A stretch of DNA of 64,000 nucleotides from Jonesia quinghaiensis DSM 15701 (GTDB lineage: Bacteria; Actinomycetota; Actinomycetes; Actinomycetales; Cellulomonadaceae): positions 186,001-250,000 of the forward strand of contig NZ_AUHN01000004.1 in NCBI RefSeq assembly GCF_000423205.1, given 5' to 3'. Shown here piece by piece: positions 1,992 through 52,886 of this stretch (the first letter of the stretch is position 1; the number at the start of each line of letters is the position of its first letter). The notes under the pieces were generated by a model. It ran no database searches. It worked only from the letters and a program-made list of their open reading frames with translations, and was not told where the DNA came from. The position numbers and the translations under genes are program-made.

Positions 1992-3812
1992 TCACCTCGA
2001 AACGAAAGTGGGATTGTGCCCACTTTCCCTTTCGAAAGTGGGCACAATCCCACTTTCGACGGGGAGGGGGAGGGGGACGGGGAGGGGGAGGGGAGTAAGC
2101 AAGCGGGTAGCAGTAGTTTCCTGCAACACCCCGCCGTCCACGTGTAACACCAAGTCAGCCCCAGCAGCGTCCCCCAGCCTGTGAGTGATCTCAATGAGCG
2201 TGACCTCAGGGAATGCGGTTCGCAATGAGTCACGGACCTGGGCTGCGGTGGCTTCATCCAGGTGGGAGGTGTGTTCATCAAGGATCAGCACTCTGGCTCC
2301 GCTGAGTAGCGCACGAGCCAACGCAAGGCGTTGGCGTTGCCCACCGGAAATGTTCTCCCCAAACTCCCCTACCCGCGTGTCATAGCCTGCTGGGAAGTCT
2401 TCAATGTCTTGGTCAATGCAGGCGATACCGCAGGCCGTTTTGAGTTCCTTAAGCGTCGCATCAGGGTTGGCGAGGCGCAGGTTCTCTGCGATGCTGACGT
2501 TAAAGAGGTGGGTGTTTTGACTGACCAGCGCCACCGTTGAACGCAGTGTCGCTAGTGGGAGGTGACAAATATTTACCCCGCCCAGGTGGATGGTTCCCGC
2601 GTTGGGGTCCCATACTCGCAGGAGAAGATGCGCGAGGGTGGATTTACCTGCCCCCGACCGCCCCGCGATGACAGTGCGGGTGCCGGGGCGGGCTTCGAAG
2701 GTGACCCCGGTAAGGGCCGGTGCGCAACTTGGGCGCCCAGGTGCTGGCGGGTAGGTGAAGGTCACGTTGTTAAAGGACACCGCCAGTGGGCCTGCAGGCA
2801 GTTCCCGGGTTTCGCTTACAGGTGGGTCAGCGACGGCTGGTGGTGCGTCAGTCAGGTGGAAGAGGCGTTGAGCTGACGCGAGGGCTTTTTCGAGGTCAGT
2901 CATGACGTCTTCAAGCCCTCGAGCTGCGGAGTAGGTGGCGAACACGGCGGCCAGTGAAGCAGCGACCTCAGGCAAGCTCAGTTGCCCGGTTCCGTACAGT
3001 CCCAACCCCACAACGGCGAGGGTCACGAGCGACACGTACATGAGTGCTTGGGACGCACCTCGACGTAGTGCGACAAGTCGCCACATGGTCGATGTGTGGG
3101 TAACGATCGGGGCGTCGAGTATGGCGTGTTGTTGCAGGCGGGGATGCTCATACCCAAAATCAACGATGTCGCGCACACCTTGCACTGTCTCAGTGACGTG
3201 CATGGCCTGTTGAGCGCGCGCGGCGAGGAGCGCATCGGCGGTTTTGGCCCCGCGTCGGGTCCCGAGAAACGGGACCGCCCACGTCACCGCAAGAACAAAT
3301 GGCAGCGCCGTCAACGCCAAGGTTGGTGACGCCCACACAGCAAGTGTTGCCAGCGAACTGAGCGGAACAACCAGTGCGGCCGTGACAGGGGCGATGGTGT
3401 GTGCGAAAAACACTTCGATGCGGTCGATGTCCCTGGTGACTTTGGAGAGTATGTCACCGGTGTGGCTTGAGGTGGACATCGCTGGGGCTTGGGGCCAAAT
3501 ACGCCCGAAAGCCCACACCCGCAGGTGTTCAAGTGCGGAGAACGCCACGTAGTGGCCGGTGTACTGCTCTAGGTAGCGCAACACTGCTTTCACGAGGGCC
3601 AAAACAACCATGATTGTGAGGGTCCGGGTGATAGTGGCCGATGCGTCTGCCGGGTTTGTAGCACTTGTGGCGGCTCCGTAAGCGGCGACACTGAGTAAGG
3701 CGATACCCGCGAACTGGTCAAGGATCCGGCACAGGGCACTCAGTATCAGTGGGGTCATCACCGGGCGAGCCAGGGTAGCGAGGCGACGCATGAGGGATAG
3801 TCGTGGTGTCAT
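1992..3812 (-). CDS. ABC exporter-fold half-transporter (second subunit of pair 1), with element-derived C-terminal tail
   Basis: One polypeptide holds a six-helix membrane domain (about residues 15-310) and an ATPase domain. Walker A is AGRSGAGKS, the signature ISGGQRQRLALARAL and Walker B VLILDEH; the usual DEP is DEH. It overlaps the upstream subunit by ATGA, so the two are translationally coupled and should form a heterodimer. The iron box before the operon points to the IrtAB/YbtPQ group, which uses an exporter fold to take up siderophores; CydC is the main alternative, but no cydAB is present. The last about 35 residues (Leu/Pro repeats, then ESGIVPTFERESGHNPTF) are encoded by a C-rich tract and a 56-bp palindromic element, not by normal family sequence. 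Confidence 0.82.
   Translation of the reverse strand: MTPRLSLMRRLATLARPVMTPLILSALCRILDQFAGIALLSVAAYGAATSATNPADASATITRTLTIMVVLALVKAVLRYLEQYTGHYVAFSALEHLRVWAFGRIWPQAPAMSTSSHTGDILSKVTRDIDRIEVFFAHTIAPVTAALVVPLSSLATLAVWASPTLALTALPFVLAVTWAVPFLGTRRGAKTADALLAARAQQAMHVTETVQGVRDIVDFGYEHPRLQQHAILDAPIVTHTSTMWRLVALRRGASQALMYVSLVTLAVVGLGLYGTGQLSLPEVAASLAAVFATYSAARGLEDVMTDLEKALASAQRLFHLTDAPPAVADPPVSETRELPAGPLAVSFNNVTFTYPPAPGRPSCAPALTGVTFEARPGTRTVIAGRSGAGKSTLAHLLLRVWDPNAGTIHLGGVNICHLPLATLRSTVALVSQNTHLFNVSIAENLRLANPDATLKELKTACGIACIDQDIEDFPAGYDTRVGEFGENISGGQRQRLALARALLSGARVLILDEHTSHLDEATAAQVRDSLRTAFPEVTLIEITHRLGDAAGADLVLHVDGGVLQETTATRLLTPLPLPVPLPLPVESGIVPTFERESGHNPTFVSR
2003..2058. repeat. 56-bp palindromic element, family 1, copy 1
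   Basis: Two perfect 25-bp inverted arms (2003-2027 and 2034-2058) flank a six-base centre, CCTTTC. Each arm is itself a small hairpin (AAAGTGGG, six bases, CCCACTTT). The element lies inside the reading frame of the minus-strand transporter gene and supplies part of its C-terminal tail. The second copy at 5734-5789 has identical arms but the reverse-complement centre GAAAGG. A purine-rich G tract follows both copies on the right. Confidence 0.95.
2059..2097 (+). repeat. G-rich purine tract with G-quadruplex potential
   Basis: Runs of four and five G separated by single A or AC make up this stretch directly after the palindrome. On the plus strand it satisfies the usual G-quadruplex pattern of four or more G runs with short loops. 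On the minus strand it is read as Leu-Pro-Leu-Pro-Val repeats near the end of the transporter. The left flank of the palindrome (about 1950-1990) is correspondingly pyrimidine-rich. Confidence 0.75.
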
Positions 3813-5733: not shown

Positions 5734-5789
5734 CGAAAGTGGGATTGTGCCCACTTTCGAAAGGGAAAGTGGGCACAATCCCACTTTCG
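5734..5789. repeat. 56-bp palindromic element, family 1, copy 2
   Basis: Same 25-bp arms as the copy at 2003-2058 (5734-5758 and 5765-5789), with centre GAAAGG, the reverse complement of the other copy's CCTTTC. It is intergenic and upstream of the first ABC operon, so the two copies bracket that operon. A G-rich tract follows on the right, as in copy 1. Confidence 0.95.
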
Positions 5790-6686: not shown

Positions 6687-8387
6687 TCACTCAGGGACGG
6701 TCGCGAGCACCTCACCGGCCGTCACCTGAGTGACAGAGCCATGATCAACCCGGAACACACAATCCGCCCCCACAGCGTCCTGTGGGCGGTGCGTGATTTC
6801 CACAATCGTTGCGTGAACGCGAGCCGCACGCAACGCCCGACGCACCCTCCCCGCAGTATCTTCATCGAGGCTGGACGTGTACTCGTCCAGCACAAACACA
6901 TCGGCATCACTCAACAATGCCCGCGCCAACGCGAGGCGTTGACGTTGCCCACCAGACAACGACTCACCGAACTCACCCACAACGGTGTCATACCCGTCAG
7001 GGAAACCGACAATGTCGTCATGCAGTTGCGCCACCTCGCACGCCGCCTGCAACTCAGTGGATGAAGCATCAGGGCGGGCAATGCGCAGGTTCTCGGCAAT
7101 ACTCATCGCAAACAAGTGGGTACGTTGCGATACCATCGCAACACGGGCCCGCAGGTCATCCTGCGCCACAGTGTTCACTGGCTCACCGCCCACGGAGATA
7201 ACCCCCGCATCGGTATCCCAATAGCGCAGCAGCAGATGCGCGAGAGTTGTTTTCCCAGAACCCGAGCGGCCCACAATCACCGCGCGGGCACCCGCCTGAA
7301 TCACCAGTGACGCATGCGTGACCGCTTCGGTGCGCGCGCCAGGGTAGGTGAACGTGACGCCGTTGAACTCAACACCGACCGGGCCAGCCGGGATCACCGC
7401 GGGTTGTTCTGGGTCACTTACCGCTGGCGGCTGCGATACCACCAAGCGCAGCCGATGCGCCGCAGAACCGGCCCGATCAAGGTCAGCAAGCAATGAATCA
7501 ATGGCTTTCACCGCAGAAAAACACGCCAACGTCACCGCTGTTGCAAGCGCCAACTGTTCCAAACTCAGCGTGCCACGCACAAGGCGGGCACCCCCATCAC
7601 CAAGCACAAGGAGCACCGTGGTCAGGGTGACGAACTGTGTCAAAGCCCGGCGTGCTGCTGTCAGAGCGCCTTCACGGCGGGCATCGTGTGTCATGTCAGA
7701 AGTCAGTTGCGTGGAGCGTTCCAGCCACGGCTTGTTGTAGCCGTACCCCACAATCTCACGCACACCTTGCACCGACTCAGTGGCGAACTGAGCGAACTCG
7801 CCCCGGCGCCCCGCACCACTCTGGCTTGCCCGTTGCAACGCGAACCACCCAACCGTTGGGATCGCAGCAGCAACGGCAAACACCCCTGCAGCCGCGATCC
7901 ACGCCAACACGGGGGAAGTTGTCATACCCATCCACGTCAACGCAATAATGGGCACCACCACGGCGCTGATCACCGGGGCAATAGTGTGCGCGAAAAACAC
8001 CTCAATCCGGTCAATATCTTTCGTCATCCGGGTCAGAAGGTCACCAGTTTTAGCGCTAGCAGTATTCGCTGGGGCACCAGGCCATACCCGCGAAAACGCA
8101 AACACACGCAGTTCCTCTAAAGCCTTAAACGCCACATAGTGCCCGGAGTACTGCTCAACATACCGAAACACCGCTTTAATCAGGGTCAACACCGCAAGCG
8201 TGATCACCAAGCGAGGAACATCAACCCCACCCACGACCGCCCGGGCAGCACCAGCGGCGGCTGTTGCCAGAATCGCGATGGCAAGAACCTGATCCACAAT
8301 GCGGCACACCGTCGACAGAACAAGCGGCCACAGCACGGAACGAACATGGCGCGCGCTCCACAACAGGGCAGAAAACGACGTGGTCAT
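6687..8387 (-). CDS. ABC exporter-fold half-transporter (second subunit of pair 2)
   Basis: 566 residues: membrane domain (about 15-300) then ATPase domain with Walker A VGRSGSGKT, signature LSGGQRQRLALARAL and Walker B VFVLDEYTSSLDE. It is clearly paralogous to the 1992-3812 product: both have RYxEQYxGHYVAF and DIDRIEVFFAHTIAP in the membrane domain, and both replace the Pro after DE in Walker B. It overlaps its partner by ATGA. No iron box was found for this pair. Substrate is unknown; an iron/siderophore role would rest on paralogy to pair 1, CydC on general similarity. Confidence 0.82.
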   Translation of the reverse strand: MTTSFSALLWSARHVRSVLWPLVLSTVCRIVDQVLAIAILATAAAGAARAVVGGVDVPRLVITLAVLTLIKAVFRYVEQYSGHYVAFKALEELRVFAFSRVWPGAPANTASAKTGDLLTRMTKDIDRIEVFFAHTIAPVISAVVVPIIALTWMGMTTSPVLAWIAAAGVFAVAAAIPTVGWFALQRASQSGAGRRGEFAQFATESVQGVREIVGYGYNKPWLERSTQLTSDMTHDARREGALTAARRALTQFVTLTTVLLVLGDGGARLVRGTLSLEQLALATAVTLACFSAVKAIDSLLADLDRAGSAAHRLRLVVSQPPAVSDPEQPAVIPAGPVGVEFNGVTFTYPGARTEAVTHASLVIQAGARAVIVGRSGSGKTTLAHLLLRYWDTDAGVISVGGEPVNTVAQDDLRARVAMVSQRTHLFAMSIAENLRIARPDASSTELQAACEVAQLHDDIVGFPDGYDTVVGEFGESLSGGQRQRLALARALLSDADVFVLDEYTSSLDEDTAGRVRRALRAARVHATIVEITHRPQDAVGADCVFRVDHGSVTQVTAGEVLATVPE

Positions 8388-10348
8388 CGGGTCACCTCAG
8401 TCAATATTCCGTCACGCAGGTTTAGTACACGGTCCACAGTTCGTAACGCCGATGCCCGGTGAGAGATCGACAAAACGGTGCGGTCAGTGGACGCCACAAT
8501 TCCGTCAATAGCAGCAATAATGGCCCGCTCGCTCGCCAGGTCCACTTGAGACGTGGGCTCATCCAACACGATCAGTGGCGCATCTGTGAGGAGAGCGCGC
8601 GCAATGGAGAGGCGTTGCGCCTGCCCACCGGAGAGCGTCATACCGCGCTCCCCCACAGCGGCATCCAACCCGCCTGGCATGTCTCGAATATCAGCGGCTA
8701 GGTGAGCTGCTTCAAGGGCAACCCACATGTCGTCATCTGTTGCATCGGGGGCAGCAACATGCAGATTGTCACGCACAGTGCCACTAAACAGGTAGGTGGT
8801 TTGTTGCACCACGGCGCTGAAAGCGCGCGCTGCGGGCAAGGTCAACTCGGTAGCATCTTGGCCGGCGAACAACAAGTCACCACCTTCTGGAGCAATGGAA
8901 CGTTCCACGATGCGTGCGATGGTGGATTTCCCGGAACCTGAGTGGCCGGTGAGTGCCACATGTTCACCCTGGTGGATGGTGAGGTTAGCCCCGTTGAGGA
9001 CTCGTAACTCACCGTACCCGCACACAACGTTGCGCAATTCGAGAAGAGGTGGGCGGGTATCATCAGCCGAAATCCTAGATTTCGGTGCGAGATCCTCACC
9101 GTCGTCAAGGATCTCAGTGCGAGATCTAGGATCTCGGCGCAGGGACGGGGAGGAGCCGCCTGTCACAGGAGCACGCGTGCCAAGGAACCTCGCGATGCCT
9201 CGCTCAGTGGCACGCCCACCCAGCCCCACGTAAAAGAACGAACCGACCTTCGCCAACGGCTCCAACAACACTGTCGCAAGAAGCACCAACGCAAGGGCCT
9301 GACCTGCAGTGATAATCCCATCTTGCAGGCGCACCACGGCGAGCACCGCCAACGCGGACACCATCACCAGGAAAAACACCGCATCCGTGACCAGGATGAC
9401 CACCTGATTCACTGCCAACAAACGCATCACAGAACGCCGGTTTCGCTCACCCGCAGCAGCAAGCCGCTCCTGCATCCACCGGGCGGCGCGCATCAACCGC
9501 AACGTCGTCAACCCCTGCAACGCATCCAAATAATCTGCGGCAAGCGCTTGGCGTTGAGCCCGTGAACGCCCCGAAACCTGACGGAACGCCTTCTGAAAAC
9601 CATAAATTGCAGCCGGAATAACAGGGATAAGAACCAGCAAAATCAGTGCTGTCACCCAGTCAATAAACAACGCAATAACCACGACCACCAACACCGGTGA
9701 AACGACCGAGGCTAGCGAGGGCCCCACAAAACCCATCCGGTACGCGGCAACCCGTTCAGCACCATCCGTCGCGGAAGCAACAATCGCGCCTGAACGATCA
9801 GAAGCCCGAGAAACCGGCCCAACATCAAGAATGTGAGAGACAATCCGGGTGCGCACCTGCGCTTCCTCACGCGCGGTGCCAGCCGTCGTCACCCACACCC
9901 CCACCGCCGTTAGTGAAGCTGCCAGCGCCGCGAGCGCAATCGCCAACCATCCACCAAAGCCTGGGCCGATGCCCGCCACTAGTGAGGCAAGGGGAGCCTG
10001 GTTGGTGTCGCTTAACGTTCCAAACGAGGCGATCTCGCTGGTTGCGCCTGATTTCACGAGGTATCCGTCAATGACCGCCCCGGCAACCACAAACAGGAGC
10101 GCCGTGACGACGGACGCGGCGGTGAGGATGATGGCGGATAGTCGGGTGGTGGTGCGCAGTTGTGGTGTGTACAAAATAGCTGGGTCTACTGTTGGTGGCT
10201 TGCCGCCACCGTGTCCCCCTGGACGGCCGCCAGGATGCCCTCCGCCACTGGGGGTGTGGCCTTGGGAATTGGGGCGTTGACCAGGGTGCTTTGCGGGGGT
10301 GTTCTCGCCAGCACGCCGGTGCGGGGACGATGCGTTGGAGGCAGGCAT
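8384..10348 (-). CDS. ABC exporter-fold half-transporter (first subunit of pair 2) carrying an in-frame palindromic element
   Basis: 654 residues. An unusual hydrophilic Gly/Pro/His-rich N-terminus (about residues 1-55, with a GGHPGGRPGGHGGGK stretch) precedes the six-helix membrane domain and the ATPase domain (Walker A TGHSGSGKS, signature LSGGQAQRLSIARAL, Walker B LIVLDEPTSQVD). Between the two domains, residues about 404-428 are encoded by the 73-bp palindrome at 9066-9138, giving DPRSRTEILD and SRISA. The ATG at 10348 has no strong ribosome site, so a shorter form starting after the His/Gly tail is possible. The His-rich tail could bind metal, which is speculation. Paralogous to 3809-5560. 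Confidence 0.8.
   Translation of the reverse strand: MPASNASSPHRRAGENTPAKHPGQRPNSQGHTPSGGGHPGGRPGGHGGGKPPTVDPAILYTPQLRTTTRLSAIILTAASVVTALLFVVAGAVIDGYLVKSGATSEIASFGTLSDTNQAPLASLVAGIGPGFGGWLAIALAALAASLTAVGVWVTTAGTAREEAQVRTRIVSHILDVGPVSRASDRSGAIVASATDGAERVAAYRMGFVGPSLASVVSPVLVVVVIALFIDWVTALILLVLIPVIPAAIYGFQKAFRQVSGRSRAQRQALAADYLDALQGLTTLRLMRAARWMQERLAAAGERNRRSVMRLLAVNQVVILVTDAVFFLVMVSALAVLAVVRLQDGIITAGQALALVLLATVLLEPLAKVGSFFYVGLGGRATERGIARFLGTRAPVTGGSSPSLRRDPRSRTEILDDGEDLAPKSRISADDTRPPLLELRNVVCGYGELRVLNGANLTIHQGEHVALTGHSGSGKSTIARIVERSIAPEGGDLLFAGQDATELTLPAARAFSAVVQQTTYLFSGTVRDNLHVAAPDATDDDMWVALEAAHLAADIRDMPGGLDAAVGERGMTLSGGQAQRLSIARALLTDAPLIVLDEPTSQVDLASERAIIAAIDGIVASTDRTVLSISHRASALRTVDRVLNLRDGILTEVTR
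9066..9138. repeat. 73-bp palindromic element, family 2, copy A (inside coding sequence)
   Basis: An imperfect inverted repeat with outer ends GCCGAAATCCTAGATTTCGG and GAGATCTAGGATCTCGGC. Its reverse complement matches the copy at 52423-52495 exactly for the first 35 bases and at about 62 of 73 overall by hand alignment. It is translated within the linker between the membrane and ATPase domains of the transporter, without disrupting the frame. Confidence 0.9.
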
Positions 10349-48183: not shown

Positions 48184-49065
48184 ATGATGAAGGTGGAACT
48201 CGGGCATCTCGAAGCCCTGCTTGCCGTTGTTGACGAAGGTTCCTTCGACGGCGCCGCCGCCGTCCTGCGGGTATCACCCAGCGCAATCAGCCAACGCATC
48301 AAATCGCTCGAAACCGCCGCCGGGCAAGTCCTCATCCAACGCACAAAACCCGCACGCCCCACCCCAGCAGGCATTCCATACGTGCAAGCAGGCCGTCAGA
48401 TCGACGCAGTGCTCTCCCAAACCCTCGGACAAACAGATCTCGTGTCCACCGGACCACCCGACATCCCCCTCGCGGTGAACTCCGATTCACTAGAGACGTG
48501 GATCATCCCAGCGCTCGCCTCCATCCGGGACACAGCGAACTTCCACATCCTTCGCGATGATCAAGATCACACCGCTGAAATGCTGAGAACAGGCACCGTC
48601 CTCGCCGCCGTCACATCAGTCGCTGACCCCATCCAAGGCTGCGAGTCATACCGGCTCGGAGTCATGCGCTACCTCCCCGTTGCCACGCCCGCCTTCGCCG
48701 CCCGGTGGTTCCCCCGCGGCCTGACACCCGCCGCACTGGAAAAAGCACCCACCGTCGTCTTCGACCGGAAAGACAAACTCCAACACCTACTCCTGCAAGC
48801 CCACGGTGTTGACCCCGACGCACCCTCACGATGCTATGTGCCGTCCAGTTACTCGTTTGTCCACGCCATAGAACAAGACATGGGCTGGGGTCTCGCCCCA
48901 GAAATACAAATCGAAGATGCCCTCGAAACCGGTGAGCTTATCCACCTGTCTGAACACTTTGACATCACCTTGTACTGGCAACAATGGAAACTGGAATCAC
49001 CAGCACTCAACACACTGCGGCAAGCCATCCAAGATGCCGCAGCTTACGCGCTACGCATTAAGTGA
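48184..49065 (+). CDS. lysG: LysR-type regulator LysG/ArgP
   Basis: 293 residues. Winged-helix DNA-binding domain at the N-terminus (ALLAVVDEGSFDGAAAVLRVSPSAISQRIKSLE), then the effector-binding domain of the IciA/ArgP type. Activates lysE when lysine or arginine is high, as in C. glutamicum. ATG 48184 (or 48187) follows AAGGTGGGCTA. It ends inside the last 15 bases of the converging glycosylase gene. Confidence 0.92.
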   Translation: MMKVELGHLEALLAVVDEGSFDGAAAVLRVSPSAISQRIKSLETAAGQVLIQRTKPARPTPAGIPYVQAGRQIDAVLSQTLGQTDLVSTGPPDIPLAVNSDSLETWIIPALASIRDTANFHILRDDQDHTAEMLRTGTVLAAVTSVADPIQGCESYRLGVMRYLPVATPAFAARWFPRGLTPAALEKAPTVVFDRKDKLQHLLLQAHGVDPDAPSRCYVPSSYSFVHAIEQDMGWGLAPEIQIEDALETGELIHLSEHFDITLYWQQWKLESPALNTLRQAIQDAAAYALRIK

Positions 49066-49725
49066 GCGCCCTGCCCTAAAGGGCGACACATAACGGTCGC
49101 CAAGAATATAGAACCGCCACGGAAAAGCATCGGTGCCTGCAACCCCTGATACTCCGGTACGCGGGGAGGTGCCGATACTGTCAGGGTGCACGGCATATTC
49201 AGAGCCGGGAACAGGCAGCACGATGCTTGCCATGCCACCACCTAGAGCATCGGTCCCGTCGTGTATGGGGTAAGTGATACCCAACGCTTGGGCAAGGCGG
49301 CCCGGCCCACGGGCCAAATCTCGGGGTGTCGTGGCTGCTGGGCGGCGTGACTGCGCGATGTCCGCACCGTCGACAACTTCACCAGCCCGCAACAGTAACC
49401 CTGATGCGGTGCCAGTTGGGGAGCACACCACGTTTGCTGCGCTATGAATCCCGTAGGACAAATACACATACATATGCCCTGGTGGGCCAAACATGGTGGC
49501 GTTTCGTGCGGTGGGGCCCATCCGGGCGTGGGAACCGGAGTCAGGCACCGCGTCCATGCCAGGCCCGTGGTAGGCCTCAACTTCTGTGATGCGTACGGTA
49601 ACGGGGCCAGGTTCAAAGAACGTTGTGATCCGGGCGTTCAGTAAAGCGGGGGCGACCTCGCGGGCAGGCCGTTCGAAAAAGTGGCGGTCGGGCACAAAAA
49701 AACCGTTCGGGCACGCATCAACCAT
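49051..49725 (-). CDS. mpg: 3-methyladenine DNA glycosylase, AAG/MPG type
   Basis: Removes alkylated purines. 224 residues. VRITEVEAYHGPGMDAV with the catalytic Glu, ARNATMFGPPGHMYVYLSYGIH, GLLLRAGE and LARGPGRLAQALGI are AAG/MPG signatures. ATG 49725 (MVDACPNGFFVPDRHFFE) is chosen; the longer frame to 49824 runs into repeat sequence. Overlaps the end of lysG by 15 bases, convergent. Confidence 0.92.
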   Translation of the reverse strand: MVDACPNGFFVPDRHFFERPAREVAPALLNARITTFFEPGPVTVRITEVEAYHGPGMDAVPDSGSHARMGPTARNATMFGPPGHMYVYLSYGIHSAANVVCSPTGTASGLLLRAGEVVDGADIAQSRRPAATTPRDLARGPGRLAQALGITYPIHDGTDALGGGMASIVLPVPGSEYAVHPDSIGTSPRTGVSGVAGTDAFPWRFYILGDRYVSPFRAGRSLNA

Positions 49726-49807
49726 GGGCGTCAGCGTACCCGAACGGTGTAGATCAGGCAGGTGGGCGGCGCTATGTGTGATCAGGCTCAAGGAGCGGCC
49801 GGAGGCC

Positions 49808-49890
49808 GGTGAGCGGCAGGTCACCGGTTAGCGGCAGGTCACCGGTTAGCGGCAGGTCACGTGTTAGCGGCAGGTCACGTGTTAGCGGCC
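49808..49890. repeat. 18-bp tandem repeat, about 4.6 units
   Basis: Four units of 18 bp (49808-49825, 49826-49843, 49844-49861, 49862-49879) plus a partial unit share the core TAGCGGCAGGTCAC. The array abuts the stop codon of the small Cys-rich gene and the region upstream of mpg. No spacer variation, so not CRISPR. Confidence 0.9.
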
Positions 49891-51967: not shown

Positions 51968-52048
51968 GAATGTCATATGGTCATGCGTCACACAATGACC
52001 GCACCAGAGGGGACAATAATGAAGACCACACACGCACCAGAGGGAATC

Positions 52049-52351
52049 ATGAAAGCCGACACCGAAGAACAACTCGCCGCCCGCAAGCGAATCGTGAACC
52101 GCCTGAAACGAGCAAACGGCCAGCTCGCTGGACTCATTGCTCAAGTCGAATCAGGCGCAGAATGCCGAGACGTTGTCACGCAACTCTCCGCAGTTTCCTC
52201 GGCCCTCGACAAAGCCGGGTTCGCCATCATTTCATCTGCAATGAAGGACTGCGTTCTTGACCCTGAACGCCAAGAAGAAGCCACCGAAGAAGGCAAAAAG
52301 GGGCCACTCACCCTCGACGAACTCGAAAAACTCTTCCTCACCCTGGCGTAA
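52049..52351 (+). CDS. CstR-like persulfide-sensing repressor (CsoR family)
   Basis: About 100 residues of the DUF156/CsoR fold (RIVNRLKRANGQLAGLIAQVE). Two Cys are 29 positions apart (ECRDVV and AMKDC), as in CsoR, but the His expected four residues before the second Cys is Ala. CsoR uses that His for copper, whereas CstR needs only the two Cys to sense persulfides. The divergent sulfur-redox fusion supports the same reading. Start ATG 52049 or 52019; each has an AGGG site in a near-duplicate leader (GCACCAGAGGG at 52001 and 52034). Confidence 0.85.
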   Translation: MKADTEEQLAARKRIVNRLKRANGQLAGLIAQVESGAECRDVVTQLSAVSSALDKAGFAIISSAMKDCVLDPERQEEATEEGKKGPLTLDELEKLFLTLA

Positions 52352-52422: not shown

Positions 52423-52495
52423 GCCGAGATCCTAGATCTCGCACTGAGATCCTTGACCGCGCAAAGGATTTCGATGCGAGATCTAGGATCTCGGC
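52423..52495. repeat. 73-bp palindromic element, family 2, copy B (intergenic)
   Basis: Perfect 20-base outer arms: GCCGAGATCCTAGATCTCGC (52423-52442) and its complement (52476-52495), with weaker pairing inside. Shares its first 35 bases exactly with the reverse complement of copy A at 9066-9138 and is also 73 bp long. It lies between cstR and the DUF2249 gene. Confidence 0.9.
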
Positions 52496-52586: not shown

Positions 52587-52886
52587 TTATAGGCGAACGA
52601 ACTGAACCCGGTAAACCTCTGGACCTTCCTCCAGGTAGGTCACATCAAACTGACCAGGCGCCCGCTCTTCCAACTGCGTAAGCAACGGAACAGGGTTGTG
52701 ATTAGCAACAATCACCATTCCGCGGCCCTCAACAATTGACCCCAACGCACCAAAGATCGTGGCGTGCCGGATCGCGTGCGGGATGACCCGGGTGTCAAGT
52801 TCAGGGTAGTCAACAACGTCATGGTCACCACAGGCGCAACCGCTCGTTGGTTTTTCGCCAATTTCTAGGCCTGTTTGCTTACTCAT
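52587..52886 (-). CDS. DUF2249 domain protein
   Basis: 99 residues, a complete DUF2249 domain: YPELDTRVIPHAIRHATIFGALGSIVEGRGMVIVANHNPVPLL with a CACGDHD motif near the N-terminus that could bind metal or iron-sulfur. DUF2249 proteins are often linked to nitric oxide or hemerythrin-related iron repair; here it lies next to the nitrite reductase operon, which fits that theme. ATG 52886. Confidence 0.85.
   Translation of the reverse strand: MSKQTGLEIGEKPTSGCACGDHDVVDYPELDTRVIPHAIRHATIFGALGSIVEGRGMVIVANHNPVPLLTQLEERAPGQFDVTYLEEGPEVYRVQFVRL

Follow-up and report, generated by a model that had tools for sequence, protein, structure and literature searches.

A dispersed palindromic repeat with four sites at fixed pitch, located in frame in a CydD-like transporter gene of Jonesia quinghaiensis and recurring in related actinobacteria

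Introduction

Short palindromic repeats which lie between genes and are also fused in frame within protein-coding genes have been described as Rickettsia palindromic elements (RPEs), which measure 105-146 bp, form long stem-loops and carry terminal inverted repeats (PMC2229807). The repeat reported here resembles RPEs in occurring both between genes and in frame inside genes (in one copy, termed copy A, and at three independent sites in another genus), and differs in its length of 72 or 73 bp (82 bp in the genome G141), the comparison being one of lengths, in its four sites at fixed pitch and in being actinobacterial. REPs are present in many copies, are intergenic, mainly between convergent or codirectional genes with some inside genes, and occur in several phyla (PMC3733652). 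The present repeat shares with REPs, REPINs and BIMEs the many intergenic copies, the preference for convergent and codirectional gaps and the occasional location in genes, but it has no GTAG or CGTC tag, has four sites at fixed pitch, and no RAYT was found in its genome. Compensatory changes are common in REPIN hairpins (PMC3116915), whereas compensatory arm changes appeared here in some lineages only. Correia/NEMIS, ERIC and RUP elements are likewise short, dispersed and bounded by terminal inverted repeats; target-site duplication and TA ends are given for them in PMC2229807, whereas neither was seen by eye here.

In the open-licence literature searched, no title or abstract opening described such a repeat in Jonesia or its relatives, and the large repeat family of related actinobacteria is apparently undescribed. 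The present study characterised this repeat starting from the window, i.e., the whole analysed stretch of 64,000 nucleotides from J. quinghaiensis DSM 15701 (contig NZ_AUHN01000004.1, positions 186,001 to 250,000). Handles beginning with G, C and L denote genomes, contigs and loci, G000 being the genome of the window.

Results

Copy A in the linker of a CydD-like ABC exporter

The initial annotation had placed a 73-bp palindrome in frame between the two domains of an ABC transporter (Table 1), and this was borne out by the open frame and by the Pfam domains: the minus-strand frame is open throughout its 654 codons, ABC_membrane covers residues 73-365 and ABC_tran residues 451-600, and copy A, which encodes residues 404-428, falls between them. 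The best NCBIfam match of the protein was CydD, at 271 bits and under the cut-off of 435. A weak, shallow AlphaFold model (5 sequences, mean pLDDT 61, pTM 0.44) gave pLDDT below 50 at residues 391-449, insert included, a weak indication that this predicted region fits a loose linker.

Table 1. Features of the window bearing on the repeat (window coordinates).
Feature	Position	Strand	Remarks
Copy A, 73-bp element	9066..9138		Inside CydD-like gene; peptide RRDPRSRTEILDDGEDLAPKSRISA read on the minus strand
Copy A site 1, GAAATCC	9069..9075	+	Alignment columns 4-10; one change from GAGATCC
Copy A site 2, GAGATCC	9089..9095	+	Alignment columns 24-30; 20 bp from site 1
Copy A site 3, GGATCTC on the plus strand	9109..9115	-	Alignment columns 44-50
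Copy A site 4, GGATCTC on the plus strand	9129..9135	-	Alignment columns 64-70; 20 bp from site 3
CydD-like ABC exporter gene, 654 aa	8384..10348	-	Copy A in membrane-to-ATPase linker; Pfam ABC_membrane + ABC_tran
CydC-like partner subunit	6687..8387	-	NCBIfam TIGR02868, 340.3 bits (cut-off 329.05)
Copy B, 73-bp element	52423..52495		Between convergent predicted genes 52019-52351 (plus) and 52587-52886 (minus)

The nearest orthologue (65% identity), from the same-genus genome G001, matched the CydD-like protein at residues 3-401 (71% identity) and 432-653 (62%), and only 21 bases separate the two matched stretches in its gene. The comparison of linker length with an element-free orthologue, which had been proposed as a check, gave 81 residues here and 58 in G001 from the FFYVG motif to the start of the ABC domain, a net difference of 23 residues at copy A; since 73 is not a multiple of three, other small changes must have come with the insertion. 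By eye, the peptide DPRSRTEILD...SRISA was present in none of 40 other aligned homologues, most of them distant ABC exporters and not orthologues (the paralogue in the window, 29 whole-genome loci and 10 genome-contig loci), and the paralogue (46% identity) carries a different stretch of 75 residues at this position.

These comparisons support the proposal of the initial annotation that a dispersed repeat has been inserted in frame, as copy A, into the linker. That the segment is instead a conserved part of CydD proteins, present without any insertion, has practically no probability left: conservation across distant orthologues had been the observation to look for, and the opposite was found, the peptide missing from the other aligned homologues and from the G001 orthologue, a comparison which already refutes this reading, while just one of the 26 genomic copies described below lies inside a predicted gene.

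Copies in the genome of the window

Matched on opposite strands, copies A and B share 84.9% identity across 73 bp (E 1.1e-21), and the intergenic partner reported by the initial annotation was thus recovered, flanked by convergent predicted genes. The claim that both copies yield similar peptides in the same frame stood as sequence likeness but not as coding, as the copy B peptide, RDPRSRTEILDRAKDFDARSRIS on the plus strand, lies in no predicted gene; the likeness therefore reflects the repeat and not protein conservation. Eight matches to the core 16-mer, with up to 3 mismatches, were present in the 64-kb window, against 0.21 expected from shuffles, and the suggested genome-wide search located copies by BLAST in at least 26 places of the 3.04-Mb genome. 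A covariance model built from these 26 copies recovered all of them on both strands and none besides above threshold; because 150 of 1,173 first-look candidates were scored in this search, 26 is a lower bound. Each copy was trimmed to 73 bp before alignment, and MAFFT aligned all of them at this length without a gap. According to our own gene caller and tally, nine copies lie in convergent, ten in codirectional and three in divergent contexts, one in a gene (copy A), and three were unassigned. Four of the six reading frames are usually open (in 21, 24, 24 and 25 of the 26 copies), the remaining two almost never (1 and 0).

No element was found in G001. The gap of G001 orthologous to that of copy B (158 against 236 here, by coordinate differences) showed by eye no element and an ordinary hairpin in its place; its counterparts of C8:54863 and C1:334494 were likewise devoid of the element by eye. 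At C8:54863 itself, a terminator-like hairpin was seen by eye adjoining the element. Two identical elements in the same orientation are located 649 bp apart at G000:C7:113565 and 114214 (L037, 3004 and 3653), with a small predicted gene between them.

A second, unrelated palindrome with GAAAGTGGG-type arms occurs at window positions 2003-2059 and 5734-5789 and in 16 distinct places of the genome. The initial annotation had placed this second family inside a similar ABC gene; the family is real, but the copy at about 2003-2059 supplies C-terminal residues of a CydC-like protein and not an internal linker. Over the matched part, identity was 97-100% in 13 of the first 14 matches listed, query included, so this family is probably young. 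By eye, G-rich tandem-like sequence follows both window copies of the second palindrome. Elsewhere in the window, an 18-bp tandem repeat (49794-49889) overlaps the minus-strand open frame 49051-49824 at its 5' end.

Four-site architecture and distribution among relatives

Each strand of the element carries two GAGATC-type sites, which makes four in all (two direct and two inverted), mirrored about the centre. Across the copies of G000 the sites occupy columns 4-10, 24-30, 44-50 and 64-70 at an exact 20-bp pitch, with invariant or nearly invariant site columns. Most relatives examined carry a 72-bp element with a pitch of 19 bp, the 73-bp form with a pitch of 20 being that of G000, G013 and G063 (one G013 copy has 72 bp), while all four copies of G141 measure 82 bp and correspond to the 72-bp form with 10 bp, about one helical turn, added in the centre.

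The layout GAGATC-12/15-GAGATC-14/30-GATCTC was matched in 82 of the 221 genomes of the taxonomic family, and the reversed pattern gave zero matches in every one of them. As an isolated match to the pattern is often fortuitous, a genome was required to have two or more matches in both the forward and the reverse direction to count as a carrier, and strong recurrence of the layout was counted, in our own tally, in 40 of the 221 genomes and 10 of 25 genera. One single match recurs nearly unchanged in several genomes, including G000, and looks coding. A control with shifted spacing (first gap 16-19) gave 15 scattered matches in 14 of the 221 genomes, with at most two per genome. In an order-wide sample the layout was matched in 70 of 396 genomes; outside the family seven genomes qualified as carriers, namely 6 of the 24 genomes counted in family f13 and G461 of f19, whose match looks different. 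The element was not matched in phages (one query) or plasmids (two queries), and among viral contigs an 18-base gapped pattern is expected to match so large a collection by chance.

Site types and site conservation in G212 and G178

In G212 and G178, 79 elements scored above threshold and none did on reversed sequence. At least four kinds of site occur in them, GAGATCGG, GAGATAGG, GAGTTCGG and GAGGTCGG, and the types within one element agreed in 270 of 312 pairs (shuffles: average 40%, maximum 48%). Where three or more sites of an element could be typed, 48 of 62 elements were of a single type. Agreement was seen both between stem partners (46/50 and 54/59) and between sites which are not stem partners (37/44 to 46/55); beside the site core, non-partners and stem partners matched at 0.86 and 0.84, respectively, in G212 and at 0.82 and 0.79 in G178. 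The corresponding values in G000 were 0.55 for non-stem and 0.86 for stem pairs; outer and inner sites differ there, and joint change of type is therefore a property shown for G212 and G178 and not for G000.

Fifteen locus pairs of G212 and G178 share a gene more than 70% identical, and in 13 of the 15 an element lies beside the orthologous neighbour in both genomes, a figure which gives no retention rate, as the loci were fetched because they bear elements. Eleven orthologous copies, same-type and gap-free, differed at 28 of 396 site and 105 of 396 spacer positions (our sums of rows; 61/576 and 202/576 in the script total, which includes cross-matches), a comparison favoured towards site conservation by the finding of copies through likeness to intact sites. 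The two pairs left out were L354/L140, with an apparent indel, and L362/L382, where the element in the shared gap is GAGTTCGG-type in G212 and GAGATAGG-type in G178, a difference which may reflect independent insertion or type switching. Arrays of direct tandem repeats with a period of 19 bp, some of them built from element-like units, were observed at L140 (about 2342-2413), L123 and L124, and the unit may therefore also spread by tandem duplication.

Pairing of the arms

The four copies subjected to DNA folding were more stable than their shuffles (z from -4.8 to -18.7), with z -4.8 for copy A and -9.0 for copy B. Two copies of G000 form almost perfect palindromes (68/73 and 64/73), each with its own arms. 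In the true register, 84.6% of cells in the G000 alignment were paired, against 24.8-47.3% in slid registers, as would be seen for any inverted repeat; covariation was slightly above the shuffle mean, both members being changed in 9 pairs against 7.9, a level reached by 36 of 500 shuffles. Among 37 copies of G190, G212 and G178, covariation fell below the shuffle mean (437 of 500 shuffles reached it) and direct arm matching gave p 0.58; the relatives' set allowed up to 4 site mismatches, copies with more than 2 being dropped for the latter test and for alignment A2.

When sites were set aside (at most 2 site mismatches, G079 left out), the outer arms matched within copies beyond shuffles in G475 (0.71 against 0.40, p 0.001), based on 7 copies retrieved with an arm-blind pattern. 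An excess was likewise seen in G061 (p 0.0085) and G014 (p 0.024), in copies selected with the aid of a pairing model. There was no excess in G000 (p 0.34), G178 (0.95), G190 (0.99), G013 (0.73), G063 (0.49), G305 (0.14) and G370 (0.26); G212 was borderline (p 0.052) and G141 gave p 0.08 on 4 copies. Before the sites were set aside, arm matching had reached p 0.049 in G305 and 0.033 in G141; in that first test, site mismatches removed three loci (one each from G014, G305 and G370), and L452 and L462 were poorly placed. Beyond the sites, stem partners matched more often than non-partners in all twelve genomes. The palindrome is thus real at the level of the consensus, with active upkeep of pairing in some lineages only; that the arms never co-vary is ruled out by G475, G061 and G014. 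The G475 elements (family f13, L465-L471), whose arms match within copies unlike those of G000, are the better material for testing a role of pairing.

Two specific structural roles were rejected. A cloverleaf fold of three hairpins paired 59.3% of cells, with every shuffle at least as high, and intrinsic termination with a U-tract as a general role was set aside on the T content of the ten outward nucleotides (0.168 in G000, 0.07 in G212 and G178), which is too low for a U-tract.

Genomic context and in-frame copies elsewhere

The 79 elements of G212 and G178 were distributed over convergent (43), codirectional (25) and divergent (6) gaps and the interior of genes (5), whereas element-free gaps longer than 80 bp at the same loci were convergent in 9, codirectional in 39 and divergent in 23 cases (Fisher p 1.3e-8). 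Elements lie at a median of 49 bp from gene 3' ends (n = 111) but of 162 bp from 5' ends (n = 37). A set compiled earlier, of 45 elements from five genomes, G212 and G178 included, gave 22, 17, 3 and 3 in the same order of contexts.

All five in-gene copies of G212 and G178, which belong to another genus of the family, are in frame 0 and represent three independent sites. One lies between the halves of an MFS transporter, in both genomes; another follows the N-terminal domain of a glycosidase-like gene, again in both, the predicted frame of the G212 case continuing into a second gene; the third separates the group 1 and family 2 glycosyltransferase domains of one protein. For the MFS protein, the carriers have 73 and 89 residues in the aligned stretch, the others 52 to 91, and with so variable a loop the insertion is less clear than in CydD. 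The repeat is therefore found both between genes and in frame inside genes, where the open frames would imply its translation.

Element neighbours (40 loci of other genomes and the loci of G000) included no candidate mobilizer, transposase or binding protein. One protein family, which we take to be ABC ATPases, recurs beside several elements, and other likenesses among neighbours link few loci. Terminal inverted repeats, as expected of MITEs, are present; no target-site duplication was visible by eye in the flanks.

Tandem repeats were observed within 150 bp of 11 of the 26 G000 copies (2 of 53 control gaps; Fisher p 4e-5) and of 28 of 45 elements of other genomes (12 of 47 control gaps; p 7e-4). 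In G000 the strand reading toward the element is strongly enriched in C over G on both gene sides. A rut-like C bias was rejected as a general function, being absent in G212 and G178 and present on promoter sides too. Error-prone repair near palindromes is one idea for the clustering of tandem repeats and the C bias.

Discussion

The fixed four-site layout suggests recognition by a putative DNA-binding protein, and as an explanation of the whole we hold it marginally probable that the element is a four-site array recognised by such a protein, dispersed through the genome and tolerated in protein linkers. The fixed spacing, the concerted change of type and the lower rate of change in sites than in spacers would all follow if a putative sequence-specific protein acted on the four sites as a single assembly, and from its action on all four sites we infer that the joint-type pattern of G212 and G178 would arise; conversion between copies, which counts against this explanation, could also keep the sites alike. 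The same or a linked activity would spread the repeat, and in some lineages arm pairing may also play a part. Selection would leave copies where harm is small, within genes only where the frame stays open in a domain linker or loop; the extra residues of the CydD-like protein would most likely just lengthen a disordered linker. A broader reading, speculative and on the whole doubtful, would have arrays co-evolve with cognate putative DNA-binding proteins of differing specificity, so that several orthogonal site types with the same 72-bp geometry coexist in one genome, as parts of a mobile or chromosome-organising system of Cellulomonadaceae-like actinobacteria which also supplies protein linkers.

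The explanation based on a bound array overlaps with a purely selfish one, in which a non-autonomous MITE-like transposon, moved by a putative transposase, would have no role in place. This is a serious possibility, though one we lean away from: it accommodates the patchy copy numbers among relatives (with G001, where none was found, and G000, with at least 26, as extremes), the frame kept open by in-gene copies and the scarcity of copies in divergent, promoter-side gaps, but no target-site duplication was seen by eye, no carrier transposase was found among element neighbours, and the slower change of sites than of spacers between orthologous copies (28/396 against 105/396) indicates more constraint than a dead insertion would show, even if ascertainment favours intact sites. 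Mobility by a RAYT (Y1 transposase), as for REPs and REPINs, is very improbable despite the palindromy, dispersal and 3'-end location, which resemble those of REPs (PMC3733652): Y1_Tnp (PF01797) was found in 2 of the 221 family genomes and not in G000, in a search whose controls gave a signal in 5 of 14 cases, and the consensus ends, GCCGAGATC...GATCTCGGC, show neither a GTAG nor a CGTC tag. An RAYT was accordingly rejected as the mover.

The enrichment in convergent gaps and the elements beside orthologous neighbours in 13 of 15 pairs, at loci selected for elements, would also suit a bound but non-mobile chromosomal site which, like BIMEs, would serve architecture or insulate convergent genes; this is unlikely in view of the lack of any element found in G001, a member of the same genus, of the copies within genes, and of the orthologous gap at L362/L382 with different site types in two species. 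Less likely still is that a DNA or RNA hairpin is itself the selected form, as a bidirectional terminator, an mRNA stabiliser or a spreading fold. The strong predicted folds of four copies, the excess of arm matching in G475, G061 and G014, the proximity to gene 3' ends and the ordinary hairpin in the G001 gap at copy B all agree with it; against it stand seven genomes with no arm signal beyond the sites, covariation that was weak or below the shuffle mean, the T-poor outward bases and the separate terminator-like hairpin beside the element at C8:54863.

In-frame palindromic repeats have precedents in Rickettsia and, among REPs, in several further groups; the present repeat, which is built differently, does the same in high-GC actinobacteria. 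Its four independent in-gene cases fall at junctions between domains or, in a transporter, in the central loop. A DNA-binding partner is a clear and testable prediction of the fixed spacing and the jointly changing sites, and the patchy occurrence of the repeat in many related genomes provides material for finding it.
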